From: Candidatus Poribacteria bacterium
GTDB taxonomy: Bacteria > Poribacteria > WGA-4E > WGA-3G
Direction: 5' to 3'
Assembly: GCA_026713385.1 (NCBI GenBank)
Contig: JAPOOP010000325.1
Coordinates: forward strand, 1-37,463
DNA: 37,463 nt
Below are positions 15,643-24,389 of the stretch, piece by piece (position 1 is the first letter of the stretch; each line of letters starts with the position of its first letter). Under the pieces are notes generated by a model that saw nothing but the letters and a program-made list of their open reading frames with translations, ran no database searches and was not told the DNA's origin. Both the position numbers and the translations under genes were made by a program.

Positions 15643-16026
15643 CTATGGCAGTGCGGTAATCGTTACGTCGCCATCTGGCACAACATCCAAGGTCAGACGA
15701 CTTCCGCGAAGCAGTGCCATACCGACCAACGGTTGTTTGTCTGTTTGCAGAACTTCTATGTTGCGTTCTCTGCCGTGCCATATCACTTTTGCAAGATATA
15801 GGTTGAGAAATACTGCCCTTCCGTGAGCAATAATCGTGCGCCGAGTACCAATCCGTGGGAGTTTTAAGTGGTCAATTAAGAACCCTGGTAGCGTTAGATG
15901 GCTCGTAAATCCAGTATCAAGAATTGCCTCAATTTTCGCTCGTTGATTTAAACCGATAACTTCCATTTCAATGATGGCTGCGCGTTCGGCTCTAATTTTC
16001 CCGGTTATCATTATCACAGTCCACAT
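15643..16026 (-). CDS. Clan AA (retropepsin-like) aspartic protease
   Basis: 127 residues. The catalytic motif is D37-T-G in IEAILDTGFTSHLTLP, with a C-terminal GMALLRGSRLTLDVVPDG segment typical of small bacterial clan AA proteases. Such single-domain proteins act as dimers, each chain giving one Asp. No signal peptide, so cytoplasmic. The start overlaps the end of the preceding small gene by 35 bases, and M6 at 16011 is an alternative. The tight overlap points to strict co-expression. The gene stops one base before the left 25-bp repeat. The pair is widespread in cyanobacteria and other multicellular-type bacteria with unknown biological role. Confidence 0.85.
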   Translation of the reverse strand: MWTVIMITGKIRAERAAIIEMEVIGLNQRAKIEAILDTGFTSHLTLPGFLIDHLKLPRIGTRRTIIAHGRAVFLNLYLAKVIWHGRERNIEVLQTDKQPLVGMALLRGSRLTLDVVPDGDVTITALP

Positions 16027-16288
16027 TATATTCCACGAAATTAAAGCCTATGCCGTGGGCTGCCGGATATCCAATTCGCACACCGTAAGTCATAGCACCC
16101 GGGTGTTTGGCAAGTAGACGTTCTGTAGCTGCCAAATCCTCCTCGTCAATTTCATAGTCCTCGGTTTCAATATCGAGTACCAGGAACATGCCTTTGTGTT
16201 TTGGATCAACTTGATCACGGATTTGCTGCTGATAGATCTCTTCACCGCGGACTCCGATTTCTTCTGCGGTATAATCAGAATATGGCAT
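15992..16288 (-). CDS. Small acidic partner protein of clan AA protease
   Basis: 98 residues from the ATG at 16288, which has GGAG eight bases upstream. The frame continues further upstream to 16345 but without a plausible start signal. Features: MPYSDYTAEEIGVRGEEIYQ, KHKGMFLVLDIETEDYEIDEEDLAATERLLAKHP (core LDIETEDYEIDEEDLA) and YGVRIGYPAAHGIGFNF. This matches a family of small proteins that precede clan AA proteases or stand alone in cyanobacteria and resemble antitoxins in size, charge and operon form. I cannot name the fold. It may be a substrate, inhibitor or partner of the protease whose gene overlaps it. It follows the AAA gene after 57 bases. Confidence 0.8.
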   Translation of the reverse strand: MPYSDYTAEEIGVRGEEIYQQQIRDQVDPKHKGMFLVLDIETEDYEIDEEDLAATERLLAKHPGAMTYGVRIGYPAAHGIGFNFVEYNVDCDNDNREN

Positions 16289-16298
16289 TGTGATTCTC
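16274..16298. repeat. 25-bp direct repeat, right copy
   Basis: Covers the ribosome-binding region, ATG and first codons (Met-Pro-Tyr-Ser-Asp) of the small acidic gene. Identical to 15617-15641, so the two copies bracket the protease and most of its partner (about 630 bp between). Confidence 0.95.
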
Positions 16299-16344
16299 CT
16301 TTTAAGTGATTTTAGAATACCACTCCGTTGTCCTATTTTTCTCA

Positions 16345-18159
16345 CTATTTCGTAACACCAATGGCTTCAAGCTGTGCGATCTCTTTCATCCATGATTCTC
16401 GAACCTCAGCGGAATAGTCACCGGGGAGTAGAGATTTTCGTGTGCAGTTGACGAGGGCTTGCAAGGTTTGATAGTGTCGAATCGGACCGATATTCGGTAG
16501 GATGCGGTCTTCTGCGACAGCGATGATTTCATCGAGTGTCAGTTTGTCTTGCTTGATGAGACTGGCGGCTTCCAAATCGGAACGTAGCGATGCGAAACTC
16601 GCCGCAGAATAGTCTTCTGTCAGTTTCACAAGTCGTTCGATGGTATCTTCCGAGAGCGCATCGGGAAGAACTTTGGCGAGCGTCCAGCGGAGGAACGCCT
16701 CACGATCCTCACCCTTCGGATCAAGCACCGGGATCACCATATCCCCGACTCTACCTTCTCGTCGTAGGTCGGGAGAGAGATGATAGATCCGAGCAGTCAT
16801 GAGGAGCCAGGTGATATTGCCACGAAGTTGCGGATCGGACATCATTGCTTGTATCTTTCCTGTCAAACGTCGTTCTGTGCTGTGTGCGTCTGTCCCGACA
16901 TTACCGAATTGGGTGTCCGCTTCGTCAACGAAGATGAGCACCTTCACAAGAGCCATCAGTAATCGTCGGAGTCGTTCAAAAATGACATCTGTCTGTCCGA
17001 ACCACATACTCCGGATGTTCTTGAGGACGAGCACAGGGATATCGAGTTCACCAGCGAGTCCCTCGAAAATGAACGTTTTTCCGCTACCAATGGGACCGCA
17101 GACGCTCATACCGGCGATCGCGTCGGGACCGGTTGAGGTGACGCGCGGAATCAATTGCGTCTTCAGAAAATCCACTAATTTTTGGTTGCCAATGATGTCC
17201 TTGAGACTGTGTGCAGGCTTTTTAAACTCTACGACATCATCGCCTAACTGCCCTTGGATGAATTCGGACACTTTATTGATGACATCCTCAGGTTGCAATT
17301 TCTCACCGGAATAACGCGCGGTAAGGAGCATCTGTCGCAGTGCCTGTATGGATAAACCTGCTGTGAGCATTGCGAGTTGGGCTTGCGTGCCCCAAAGGTT
17401 TAGCGGTTTTTCCACCAGTTTCGGTGTGTTGTTAAACCATGAGATGAAATGCTGACGCTCCTCCATCCCCGGTGCCGGTATTTCGACGGTGATAACCTGT
17501 GGCAGCCTTGTAATTCGAGAGTTCACGAGACTCGCTGATTCAGCGATGAAGATGACGGTGTCGTTCCCGTCCATAAAACTGGAGTCCGAAATCCAATCTT
17601 GAACGATGCTGACCCGGTGTCTGTCCTGTAGCGACAAACTCCGAATTTCGCCTTCCGGTAGCAACATGTCCGTTGCTTCAATCAGGATTATCAATTTTTC
17701 CGATAGTAGTTTTTCACCCTGCGCGTCTGTGGTGCGAGAGAGTAAGCAGAACTGCCGTAGGAGTTCAAGTGCCAACGTTGGACTGCCGATTGCATCGTTC
17801 ATGTACTGCGTGAAAGAGGTATCTGCAGGTTCATCGACTTCTGTAGAGGGCGTGCGTTGAACGACTGCCGGTGTTGGACGAGGGGTGCCGACGCTGGCAT
17901 TTATGTCGACGTTCGCCTCTGTTGAGCCTCGCCATAGATTGAACGCACGCTTAACTTTTTCGCGCTCAGTCTCTTTTGAAAATCGGATGGGTCCATTGAG
18001 TTCGTAAACTATTAAGATGAACCCTGGAATGTCCCAGCTCTGCGTCAAGAAGGAGACGAGTGGAATATAATCCGTGTTATCTCCGTCTCGGACGAAGAAG
18101 AGATCGTGGATATTTCCAGATAGGACGAGGCTACGAGAGGTACCCGAATTGATGAGCAT
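16345..18159 (-). CDS. Tandem AAA ATPase with a Vps4-like pore loop, associated with PspA
   Basis: 604 residues. Residues 1-290 look like a degenerate AAA domain: SLVLSGNIHDLFF at the start, a Walker-B-like LIILIEATD (156-164) and TVIFIAES (201-208), but no GxxxxGKT. Residues 315-560 form an active AAA domain: Walker A GPIGSGKT 355-362, Walker B VLIFVDEAD 407-415, sensor-1 region WLLMTAR 451-457, and arginine-finger-type DLRREGR 464-470. The segment RSMWFGQTD (383-391) aligns with the aromatic pore loop SKWMGESE of Vps4/katanin ATPases, which grips substrate polypeptides. A linker at 80-115 is Thr/Pro-rich. It lies 112 bases downstream of pspA on the same strand. Inference: it remodels the PspA (ESCRT-III-like) polymer as Vps4 does for eukaryotic ESCRT-III. 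The ATG lacks a strong Shine-Dalgarno, so a slightly earlier non-ATG start is possible. Confidence 0.85.
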   Translation of the reverse strand: MLINSGTSRSLVLSGNIHDLFFVRDGDNTDYIPLVSFLTQSWDIPGFILIVYELNGPIRFSKETEREKVKRAFNLWRGSTEANVDINASVGTPRPTPAVVQRTPSTEVDEPADTSFTQYMNDAIGSPTLALELLRQFCLLSRTTDAQGEKLLSEKLIILIEATDMLLPEGEIRSLSLQDRHRVSIVQDWISDSSFMDGNDTVIFIAESASLVNSRITRLPQVITVEIPAPGMEERQHFISWFNNTPKLVEKPLNLWGTQAQLAMLTAGLSIQALRQMLLTARYSGEKLQPEDVINKVSEFIQGQLGDDVVEFKKPAHSLKDIIGNQKLVDFLKTQLIPRVTSTGPDAIAGMSVCGPIGSGKTFIFEGLAGELDIPVLVLKNIRSMWFGQTDVIFERLRRLLMALVKVLIFVDEADTQFGNVGTDAHSTERRLTGKIQAMMSDPQLRGNITWLLMTARIYHLSPDLRREGRVGDMVIPVLDPKGEDREAFLRWTLAKVLPDALSEDTIERLVKLTEDYSAASFASLRSDLEAASLIKQDKLTLDEIIAVAEDRILPNIGPIRHYQTLQALVNCTRKSLLPGDYSAEVRESWMKEIAQLEAIGVTK

Positions 18160-18271
18160 TCCGGCTTCTTTCCGGAATGTATAGGTTGGACTTTTAACGG
18201 CTATGGCTCATCGCCCCCTTCTGTTCGAGGTGACGCAACTGCGCGTGAGTTACTGCGTTTTTTGTGGCGCG

Positions 18272-19108
18272 TTATACCGGCAATTCAGAGTCGGAATCGG
18301 TAGTCTTCTTGGTAGAGTCCGTTTCTGTTTTTGCGTCAGTCTGCTGTGCTCCGAAAATTAAGGTGTCAAATTCGTCATTGGTAGCAGAGGAACGCGCTGC
18401 AGTGAGGAATTCTTCCTCTTCGCTTTTTGAATCCGTTCCAGCCAATTCCTGTGCAACTGTTGAACGCGCTTTCGCTTTCTCACGTATTTCGCGCATCCGA
18501 CCCAATTCGGCAGAAGTGCCGTCCATGCTAATACCGGAGAGCATATCGGCGATTTCCTCTTGCTCTCGTGCCGTAATCAGATCCGCAACTGCCTCAGACT
18601 GCTCGGACTTAATCTTATCTAAATCGCGATGCAGACTGGTAATCTGAAGTTTATGCGACTCAATATCAGTTTGCGCACCTTCAATCTCGTTTTCGAGTTC
18701 CGTAATGCGACCGCTTTTCTCCGTCAAGTTGGAATTGAAGTCTTGATAAGCAGTGACGCATCGGGTGTATTCACCGTGCACCTTGATTTCTTCCTGTGAT
18801 AGTCCGTCGCCTTGTAATTGGGCAGCGGTCTGCTGTGCCTTGGCGATTGCTCCTGATTTAAGTTCTTCGAGTCGCTCGACTTCGTCGGTAAGGCTTTTAA
18901 CCGCAGATCTTTTCTGTTCAACGAGTGCGATCAGTTGCCCGATCGCGGCCTTGTAGCGTTGGATATTCCCCTTTTTGTCGTTGATGATGTCTTCGTAAGC
19001 CCCTCTGACGGCTTCGGGGTTTTCCATCATTTTATCCGCGGATTCGTGTGCCTTTCCTGACAGTGTATACCAGATACCTTTAAAAAATCGTGTGAATCCA
19101 TTTGCCAT
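18272..19108 (-). CDS. pspA: PspA/IM30 (Vipp1)-family membrane-remodelling protein
   Basis: 278 residues. It starts with an amphipathic segment (MANGFTRFFKGIWYTLSGKAH) followed by a long charged coiled coil (about residues 35-215) with the PspA-type pattern: NPEAVRGAYEDIINDKKGNI, IGQLIALVEQKRSAVKSL, ALKSGAIAKAQQ-like heptads, and a C-terminal helix NSxIAxMLSG equivalent (EIADMLSGISMDG). The final 60 residues are acidic and low-complexity, ending DSDSELPV. PspA/IM30 proteins belong to the ESCRT-III superfamily and polymerise on stressed inner membranes. AGGAGAAAC sits before the ATG. The next gene in the same direction is a AAA ATPase. Divergent on the other side is a membrane metalloprotease. 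The classical PspBC/PspF partners are absent. Confidence 0.82.
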   Translation of the reverse strand: MANGFTRFFKGIWYTLSGKAHESADKMMENPEAVRGAYEDIINDKKGNIQRYKAAIGQLIALVEQKRSAVKSLTDEVERLEELKSGAIAKAQQTAAQLQGDGLSQEEIKVHGEYTRCVTAYQDFNSNLTEKSGRITELENEIEGAQTDIESHKLQITSLHRDLDKIKSEQSEAVADLITAREQEEIADMLSGISMDGTSAELGRMREIREKAKARSTVAQELAGTDSKSEEEEFLTAARSSATNDEFDTLIFGAQQTDAKTETDSTKKTTDSDSELPV

Positions 19109-22469: not shown

Positions 22470-24389
22470 ATGAAACTTTTTGTGCCGGGAAGAATTTGCC
22501 TGTTCGGAGAACACAGTGATTGGGCAGGTGGACACCGGCGAAGTAACGCAGAGCTCGAAAGGGGCAATACGTTAATAACAAGCACAAACCAAGGTGTATA
22601 CGCCGAGGTTAAACCGCATCCGAACCGTCTGATTTTGAAAACGACCCTCAGCGATGGCACCCGCCACGGTCCCTACAGTCTGCCTATGGAGCGAAGTGCT
22701 CTTCTCGCTGAAGCTGAAAAAGGCGGCTTTTTTAGTTATGCCGCTGGGGTCGCCTATGAAATTTTAACGAACTATCGGGTGCAAGGATTGGAAATCGACA
22801 ACTACCTCACGGATTTGCCTGTTAAGAAAGGACTATCTTCGAGTGCCGCTATCAGTGTTCTGGTGGCGCGTGCCTTCAACCGGACCTACGATCTTAAATT
22901 AACAACGCGCGGAGAAATGGAATATGCCTATCGAGGGGAAACTGCTACGCCTTCACGCTGTGGACGAATGGACCAAGGGTGTGCATACCAACGCCCTATC
23001 CTCATGACCTTCGACGGCGACCATATTGATGTAAAAGAGTTCAGTGTACCTCACGACATGTACCTTGTAATTGTCGATCTCGGTGCCAGTAAAGACACAC
23101 GACTTATACTGAGCCAATTAAATCACTGTTATCCATTTGCGGAGAACGAATTAGAAAAGAACGTGCAACACTATCTCGGTCCGTTGAGCGCAAAGATTAC
23201 GCAACTGGCGTATCAGGCACTTCGCGATGGCGATGCAGAGGCAGTCGGTAAACTCATGACGCGAGCGCAGACAGAGTTCGACAACCATTTAATACCTGCA
23301 TGCCCGTCACAATTGACAGCACCTGTTCTCCACAAAGTCCTGAATTATGAACCGATTCAACCGTATATCTGGGGTGGTAAAGGTGTCGGTTCGCAAGGCG
23401 ACGGTTCCGCCCAATTCATTGTAAAAGATGAAGAGAGTCAACAGCGGGTCATTGAGATTATCGAAGGGGATTTGCAAATGTCGTGTCTGAAACTGGTTAT
23501 TGAGGCGGGTAAACATGTCCGCAAAGCAGTTATTCCTGCCGCTGGCTTCGGAACGCGACTATTTCCAGCGTCAAAGGCGATGAAGAAGGAACTCTTTCCT
23601 GTGATTGACAAATCTGGACGCGCAAAACCAGCAATCATGGCTATCGTTGAGGAAGCGATCAACGCTGGTATTGAGGAGGTTTGTCTTATCGTGCAACCCG
23701 GAGATACCGGGCTTTTTGAATCATTTTTCAAAACGCCGCCGCGGATTGAACACTATAACAAACTCAGCAAGGAGAACCAGTCATATTGCGATGCTCTGCT
23801 GGAATTAGGGAGTCGAGTTACGTTCGTCACACAGGACGTTCAAGAGGGTTTCGGGCATGCTGTCTATTGTGCAAGAGAATGGGTTGGAAACGAACCGTTT
23901 CTGCTCATGCTCGGTGACCATCTCTACGGTTCTGATGAGGAAAAATGTTGTGCCCGACAGGTCGTAGAGGCTTATGAACAGGTAGGTCATAGTGTTGTCG
24001 GTCTCAAAGTTACACCGATTGAGCAGTTGTCGAACTTCGGTTGTGTCACCGGTACGTGGAGAGAGGAGAACTCCCTGCTTTCGCTAACGGAGATTTATGA
24101 AAAGCCGGATCCTGAGTATGCAATGGAACATTTGCACGTAGATGGGATGGATATAGACCAATTCTTGACGGTGTTCGGCATCTATGTACTTCAACCTCAG
24201 ATTTTCGATTTTCTGGAACGAAATATCACCCATAATCTTCGTGATCGAGGCGAATTTCAACTTACGTCCTGTTTAGACGAATTACGGAAGACGGATGGAT
24301 TTTCAGGATATATCGTCAAAGGGCGACGGTTTGACATCGGTCTTCCAGAGGAGTATCGTCAAACGGTTATTGATTTCATGGGAGCATAG
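22470..24389 (+). CDS. Bifunctional GHMP-type sugar kinase / UTP-sugar-1-phosphate nucleotidyltransferase fusion
   Basis: 639 residues, two full domains. The N-terminal 345 residues are a GHMP kinase: GRICLFGEHSDWAGG (7-21, galactokinase/glucuronokinase-like signature), the phosphate loop KKGLSSSAA (119-127) and GGKGVGSQGDGSAQF (302-316). The C-terminal domain from about 352 is a GalU-type nucleotidyltransferase: IPAAGFGTRLFPASKAMKKE (355-374), LMLGDHLYGS, FGIYVL and GRRFDIGLPEEYRQTV. The kinase would make a sugar 1-phosphate and the second half convert it to a UDP-sugar (or similar), a salvage route that channels the intermediate. The exact sugar (glucuronate, galactose or other) is inference. 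AAGGA precedes the ATG. No gene overlaps it. Both halves keep their core motifs. Confidence 0.87.
   Translation: MKLFVPGRICLFGEHSDWAGGHRRSNAELERGNTLITSTNQGVYAEVKPHPNRLILKTTLSDGTRHGPYSLPMERSALLAEAEKGGFFSYAAGVAYEILTNYRVQGLEIDNYLTDLPVKKGLSSSAAISVLVARAFNRTYDLKLTTRGEMEYAYRGETATPSRCGRMDQGCAYQRPILMTFDGDHIDVKEFSVPHDMYLVIVDLGASKDTRLILSQLNHCYPFAENELEKNVQHYLGPLSAKITQLAYQALRDGDAEAVGKLMTRAQTEFDNHLIPACPSQLTAPVLHKVLNYEPIQPYIWGGKGVGSQGDGSAQFIVKDEESQQRVIEIIEGDLQMSCLKLVIEAGKHVRKAVIPAAGFGTRLFPASKAMKKELFPVIDKSGRAKPAIMAIVEEAINAGIEEVCLIVQPGDTGLFESFFKTPPRIEHYNKLSKENQSYCDALLELGSRVTFVTQDVQEGFGHAVYCAREWVGNEPFLLMLGDHLYGSDEEKCCARQVVEAYEQVGHSVVGLKVTPIEQLSNFGCVTGTWREENSLLSLTEIYEKPDPEYAMEHLHVDGMDIDQFLTVFGIYVLQPQIFDFLERNITHNLRDRGEFQLTSCLDELRKTDGFSGYIVKGRRFDIGLPEEYRQTVIDFMGA

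Follow-up and report, generated by a model that had tools for sequence, protein, structure and literature searches.

Does the AAA protein that is encoded downstream of a PspA-like protein in the sponge-associated bacterium Candidatus Poribacteria act on this neighbour? The stretch of DNA analysed here (the window, 37,463 nucleotides) carries both genes as open reading frames on its minus strand, with the PspA gene upstream of the AAA gene, as the initial annotation had it. Whether bacterial PspA/Vipp1 polymers have a disassembly ATPase of their own is treated as an open question in the literature on Vipp1/PspA (PMC8281802, PMC11237479, PMC11746142).

The locus and its PspA-like protein

The gene for the PspA-like protein of the ESCRT-III superfamily (278 aa, 18272-19108, minus strand) is separated from that of the tandem AAA protein (619 aa, 16345-18204, minus strand, probable start codon ATA at 18202-18204) by an intergenic spacer (18205-18271, minus strand), which holds a Shine-Dalgarno-like AAGGGGG at 18214-18220. 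On the same strand, at 15643-16345, lies a two-gene cassette of a small protein and a clan AA aspartic protease (TIGR03698, E 2.5e-14); it was found near the AAA gene in several relatives and is missing in others, and the small protein sometimes occurs twice (L009, L021). Elsewhere in the window, a GHMP kinase domain is fused to a GalU-type nucleotidyltransferase domain in a single ORF (22470-24389, plus strand). Anti-phage defence was considered and rejected, the PADLOC matches being weak and reflecting shared AAA and coiled-coil segments.

Against Pfam PspA_IM30, the PspA-like protein scored 29.3 bits (E 7.9e-7), which is below the gathering score of 33.9; it is a divergent member of the PspA/Vipp1-type ESCRT-III superfamily. 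Its earlier assignment to this superfamily is borne out by a profile built from 30 of its relatives, which matched almost solely Vipp1/PspA entries of the PDB (best E 2e-6), by an AlphaFold model with the alpha0-alpha5 layout of PspA, including the long hairpin of alpha1 and alpha2/3 as well as alpha4 and alpha5, and by Vipp1 (6zvr) as the top Foldseek match of this model. The predicted helices comprise residues 5-29 (alpha0), 31-100 (alpha1), 112-193 (alpha2/3), 199-224 (alpha4) and 228-252 (alpha5). The window's genome encodes further PspA paralogs besides the AAA-linked module. At L165 (G000:C499) it has two PspA_IM30 paralogs in tandem, ~370-390 aa long and extended by a segment at the N-terminus, and tandem paralogs of this type recur in most genomes of the genus.

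The tandem AAA protein

The AlphaFold model of the AAA protein (mean pLDDT 88) displays two AAA-type domains and begins with a short helix, followed by the AAA-like alpha/beta domain. This N-terminal domain (about residues 1-320, 17245-18204) has no Walker A motif, and none was found in it among 48 relatives, the sole regex match being in a shorter protein and due to its C-terminal P-loop. The C-terminal part (about residues 321-619, 16348-17244) consists of the active AAA domain, which matches Pfam AAA with an E of 3e-14, and of C-terminal helices. Its Walker A motif GPIGSGKT (residues 370-377, 17074-17097) reads GK in 48/48 relatives, and its Walker B motif with the catalytic D427 and E428 (16912-16935) reads DE in 48/48. 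Sensor 1 and the second region of homology (16744-16797) include the arginine fingers R482, present in 47/48 relatives with a gap in the other one, and R485, present in 48/48. The putative substrate-threading pore loop RSMWFGQTD covers residues 398-406 (16987-17013; all these features are on the minus strand). Within it, R398, G403 and T405 are invariant in the 48 relatives, while the position of W401 (W386 in the earlier numbering; ours is that of the 619-aa protein) is occupied by W in 38, Y in 8, F in one and L in one, and is thus aromatic in 47. The distribution of these residues agrees with the initial annotation, which had taken the N-terminal AAA-like domain to be inactive, the C-terminal one to be active and RSMWFGQTD to be the pore loop.

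The description of the protein as Vps4-like, in contrast, had to be abandoned as a statement of family. Loops of the SKWMGESE type, with which the pore loop had been aligned, are common to classical AAA proteins, including Cdc48 D2, and the resemblance is therefore no sign of the Vps4 family. In a maximum-likelihood tree, the AAA family formed a clade of its own (100/100), outside the group of Vps4, Cdc48 D1/D2, PAN and FtsH (99/97), with yeast Vps4 as the only meiotic representative in the tree. PDB searches, both with the single sequence and with a profile, returned Cdc48/VAT first, and the NCBIfam scores for CDC48 (35.8 bits) and CdvC (30.5 bits) were both far below the cut-off. Foldseek aligned both domains of the model with Pex1/Pex6, Rix7 and p97/Cdc48, over ~650 columns, and also with NVL and Drg1. 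An N-terminal MIT domain is diagnostic for Vps4 (PMC10936438), and the AlphaFold model of the N-terminus of the window's AAA protein contains none. Membership of Vps4/CdvC is ruled out by the tree, the architecture and the missing MIT domain; what survives from the earlier comparison is the substrate-threading loop, not the grouping with Vps4.

A PspF-type (NtrC) regulator was likewise rejected, as Pfam and NCBIfam match classical AAA families only. The proposal that the AAA protein stands in place of PspF and PspBC is supported as regards PspF and PspC: in the genus, PspC was not found and no PspF match lay above the cut-off. Weak AAA matches in relatives were not accepted as orthologs; FtsH (L162) is among those at about residues 326-561, and the matches at about 158-491 (L163, L164, L073) belong to a sibling tandem-AAA family. 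Members of this sibling family (L163, L164, L073, L064) carry an N-terminal FLLHFNVxDL domain and occur in the same genomes, where no PspA neighbour was seen.

Start codon of the AAA gene

Judging from the alignments, translation of the AAA gene most likely starts at the ATA at 18202-18204 and not at the listed ATG at 18159. The ORF beginning with the latter (16345-18159) is 15 codons shorter, and relatives align across those 15 codons. Of 36 distinct relatives, 35 have ATA at the homologous codon and a single one has ATG; the ATA is conserved in Poribacteria from several genera, a strong Shine-Dalgarno-like run lies 5' of this codon in 35 of the 36, and in most sequences an in-frame stop codon is found shortly before it. 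Between ATA and the next methionine, variation by codon position amounted to 41/31/114, falling mostly on third positions, and upstream of ATA to 159/197/174, with no third-position excess. A start at ATG 18159 was discarded because this codon is not conserved (relatives have CTG, GTG, ACG, ACA or AAA), in contrast to the upstream ATA. The ATA start may keep expression of the AAA protein low relative to that of PspA.

Conservation of the pair

Both genes are present in all 24 genomes of the genus, which were searched first. Across the phylum, counting strong matches only, 64 of 85 genomes contain both and 14 neither; two have the AAA gene only (in at least one of them, G064, a contig end is so close that a PspA would not show), and five have only a weak PspA relative. 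Genomes that lack both genes belong to several families within the order and class. Because the genomes of the phylum are related, these counts are not independent, and more weight falls on the gene order across phyla. In GTDB genomes, a scan revealed members of the AAA family in Poribacteria, Verrucomicrobia, Lentisphaerae, Planctomycetes, Sumerlaeota, Hydrogenedentota, Acidobacteria, Myxococcales, Coatesbacteria and others, with a PspA at 64 of 80 AAA loci, mostly upstream and on the same strand; several of the remaining loci are cut by contig ends. Conservation across the phylum and several other phyla excludes a chance pairing. The co-conservation that the initial annotation had named as a check was thus found, and the pairing of PspA and AAA is real and ancient. 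In G017 (L067 4446-5603), a 385-aa ORF, possibly from a mobile element, lies between intact pspA and AAA genes.

The C-terminal tail of PspA

The last residues of the window's PspA (253-278, 18275-18352, minus strand) form a tail that is predicted to be disordered, with a pLDDT <50 for residues 253-276, and that ends in the conserved motif DSDSELPV (18275-18298, minus strand). The C-termini of AAA-linked PspAs in relatives are likewise composed of a variable linker and a short motif, which is DSDSELP[VLI] in Poribacteria, mostly LPE in other phyla and RPEI in one divergent branch. Among AAA-linked PspAs, a match to [LIR]P[EVLI] occurs near the C-terminal end in 41 of 51 distinct tails; the 10 without it belong chiefly to divergent branches. 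The end motif was not found in PspAs of the same genomes at 17 loci unlinked to the AAA gene, where the proteins have ends such as DEDLAALKAK; among five class relatives without the AAA gene, one (L066) has DLPAKE as its end, and nothing comparable occurs in the other four. The tail is a candidate recognition and initiation site, that is, a handle, for the AAA motor. In genus g13 (L122, L124, L133, L188), copies of PspA that are shortened and have no tail motif are located upstream of a full-length pspA, and some copies of this type have internal stops in other genomes.

Possible function of the pair

The pair, its co-conservation, the intact catalytic residues, the dead N-terminal domain and the tail motif are all read from sequence, the folds being predicted, and with these in hand we assign a probability of about 0.55 to the reading that PspA and AAA form a bacterial membrane-remodelling pair in which the AAA protein is a dedicated, ATP-driven unfoldase of PspA. 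The N-terminal AAA-like domain, which has no normal P-loop for ATP, would resemble that of Pex1/Pex6 in giving structural support and docking the substrate. The C-terminal ring would use its W/F pore loop to engage the unstructured PspA tail, for which the ELPV/LPE end serves as the mark, and would pull PspA subunits from the polymer, leading to polymer turnover. We infer, then, that the window's PspA polymerises and that its tail docks, and that PspA is threaded and its polymer disassembled. A role of the AAA protein as such a recycling or disassembly motor is plausible. Many PspAs work without any AAA protein of this kind.

The genes that stand between PspA and AAA in a wider operon leave room for other clients of the AAA protein. 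In many other phyla, the pair is part of a nine-gene envelope operon with OmpA/NMT1, VWA, OmpA/NMT1, TM protein, PspA, SBP, permease, ABC ATPase and AAA as the commonest full order, and G036 has this whole arrangement minus the first two genes at a single locus. The client might accordingly be another product of the operon (OmpA/NMT1, the TM protein or the ABC transporter), with PspA as a membrane scaffold or adaptor and not as the substrate. This alternative, which we regard as rather unlikely, would explain why the ancestral operon has PspA and AAA separated by SBP, permease and ABC ATPase and why G036, G025, G028 and G037 keep these genes in between, and it is in line with the main text of Ravi et al., where such operons are tied to solute transport (PMC11237479). 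Against it stands the reduction of the operon. The G030 locus consists of OmpA/NMT1, TM protein, PspA and AAA, without transporter genes, and in the window's genus the pair stands alone, most of the operon having been split off or lost and the OmpA/NMT1 part being either elsewhere or lost. Loss of the latter affects about ten of the 24 genomes, in which the PspA-AAA pair is retained; it is real, given that OmpA/NMT1 is absent from the single-contig genomes G010 and G021. Since the pair outlasts the operon's OmpA/NMT1 proteins, it is PspA that constantly accompanies AAA.

It is less probable still that the relation is reversed and a PspA polymer sequesters or silences the AAA protein until membrane stress occurs, as E. 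coli PspA does with PspF. The AAA activator PspF, held inactive by PspA, provides a precedent (PMC8281802, PMC11746142), and the non-standard start codon of the AAA gene hints at low expression, but the AAA protein is not of the NtrC/PspF type according to Pfam and NCBIfam and possesses a threading loop. That pspA and the AAA gene are mere neighbours with no joint function, for which one might point to the 1.5-2 kb of other sequence between them in g13 genomes and G017, is nearly refuted by their phylum-wide co-presence and co-absence and by a gene order conserved in many phyla.

The two-gene pair represents a minimal system, which eases testing for a bacterial counterpart of the Vps4 recycling motor, and the tail motif of PspA offers a concrete target for mutation. 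Cultured planctomycetes with the AAA family are possible hosts for genetics; Botrimarina colliarenosi has it together with PspA and the operon, and Alienimonas chondri has the AAA gene near a contig end.

Comparison with known systems

A PspA adjoining a tandem AAA protein whose N-terminal copy is inactive was reported by Ravi et al. in 2024, who inferred ATP-dependent membrane remodelling for it (PMC11237479), so that the window's pair belongs to a described kind. Judged against the description in the main text of that paper, it fits well, having two AAA domains, the N-terminal one inactive and the C-terminal one intact, beside pspA. Architecture and partner are the same, and so is the longer operon, with an ABC ATPase, a permease and a PBPB/OmpA-domain protein. 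Their main text mentions neither Poribacteria nor VWA or second OmpA/NMT1 genes, and contains no C-terminal tail motif, stripped two-gene pair, ATA start or taxonomic breadth of the AAA family as seen here.

With the PspF-PspABC system of E. coli, the pair shares a PspA and an AAA protein that are linked in function and genome. PspF, however, is a sigma54 activator, while the window's AAA protein is of the classical threading type and its genus is without PspC. The two-ring AAA proteins (Pex1/Pex6, Cdc48/p97, Rix7/NVL) are the best structural matches spanning both domains, and Pex1/6 likewise has an inactive N-terminal AAA ring; in contrast to them, the window's AAA protein has no Cdc48-type N domain, its active domain forms its own clade, and identity is about 12-19 %.

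The ESCRT-III/Vps4 system (CdvB/CdvC) has in common with the pair a polymer protein of the ESCRT-III superfamily that carries a short motif at its C-terminus, a neighbouring AAA protein and an aromatic pore loop in the latter. It differs in its ATPase, since the window's protein has two AAA domains in tandem, of which the N-terminal one is dead, lacks an MIT domain and has a core that falls outside the Vps4/Cdc48/PAN/FtsH group. We tentatively consider, as a possibility well short of our main reading, that the pair is an independently derived bacterial counterpart of ESCRT-III/Vps4, in which a two-ring, Pex1/6-like unfoldase from outside the Vps4 family would read an LPE-type peptide on its own PspA, much as MIT domains read MIM motifs, and would drive turnover, the version of Poribacteria being a free-standing one of two genes with a conserved AUA start.
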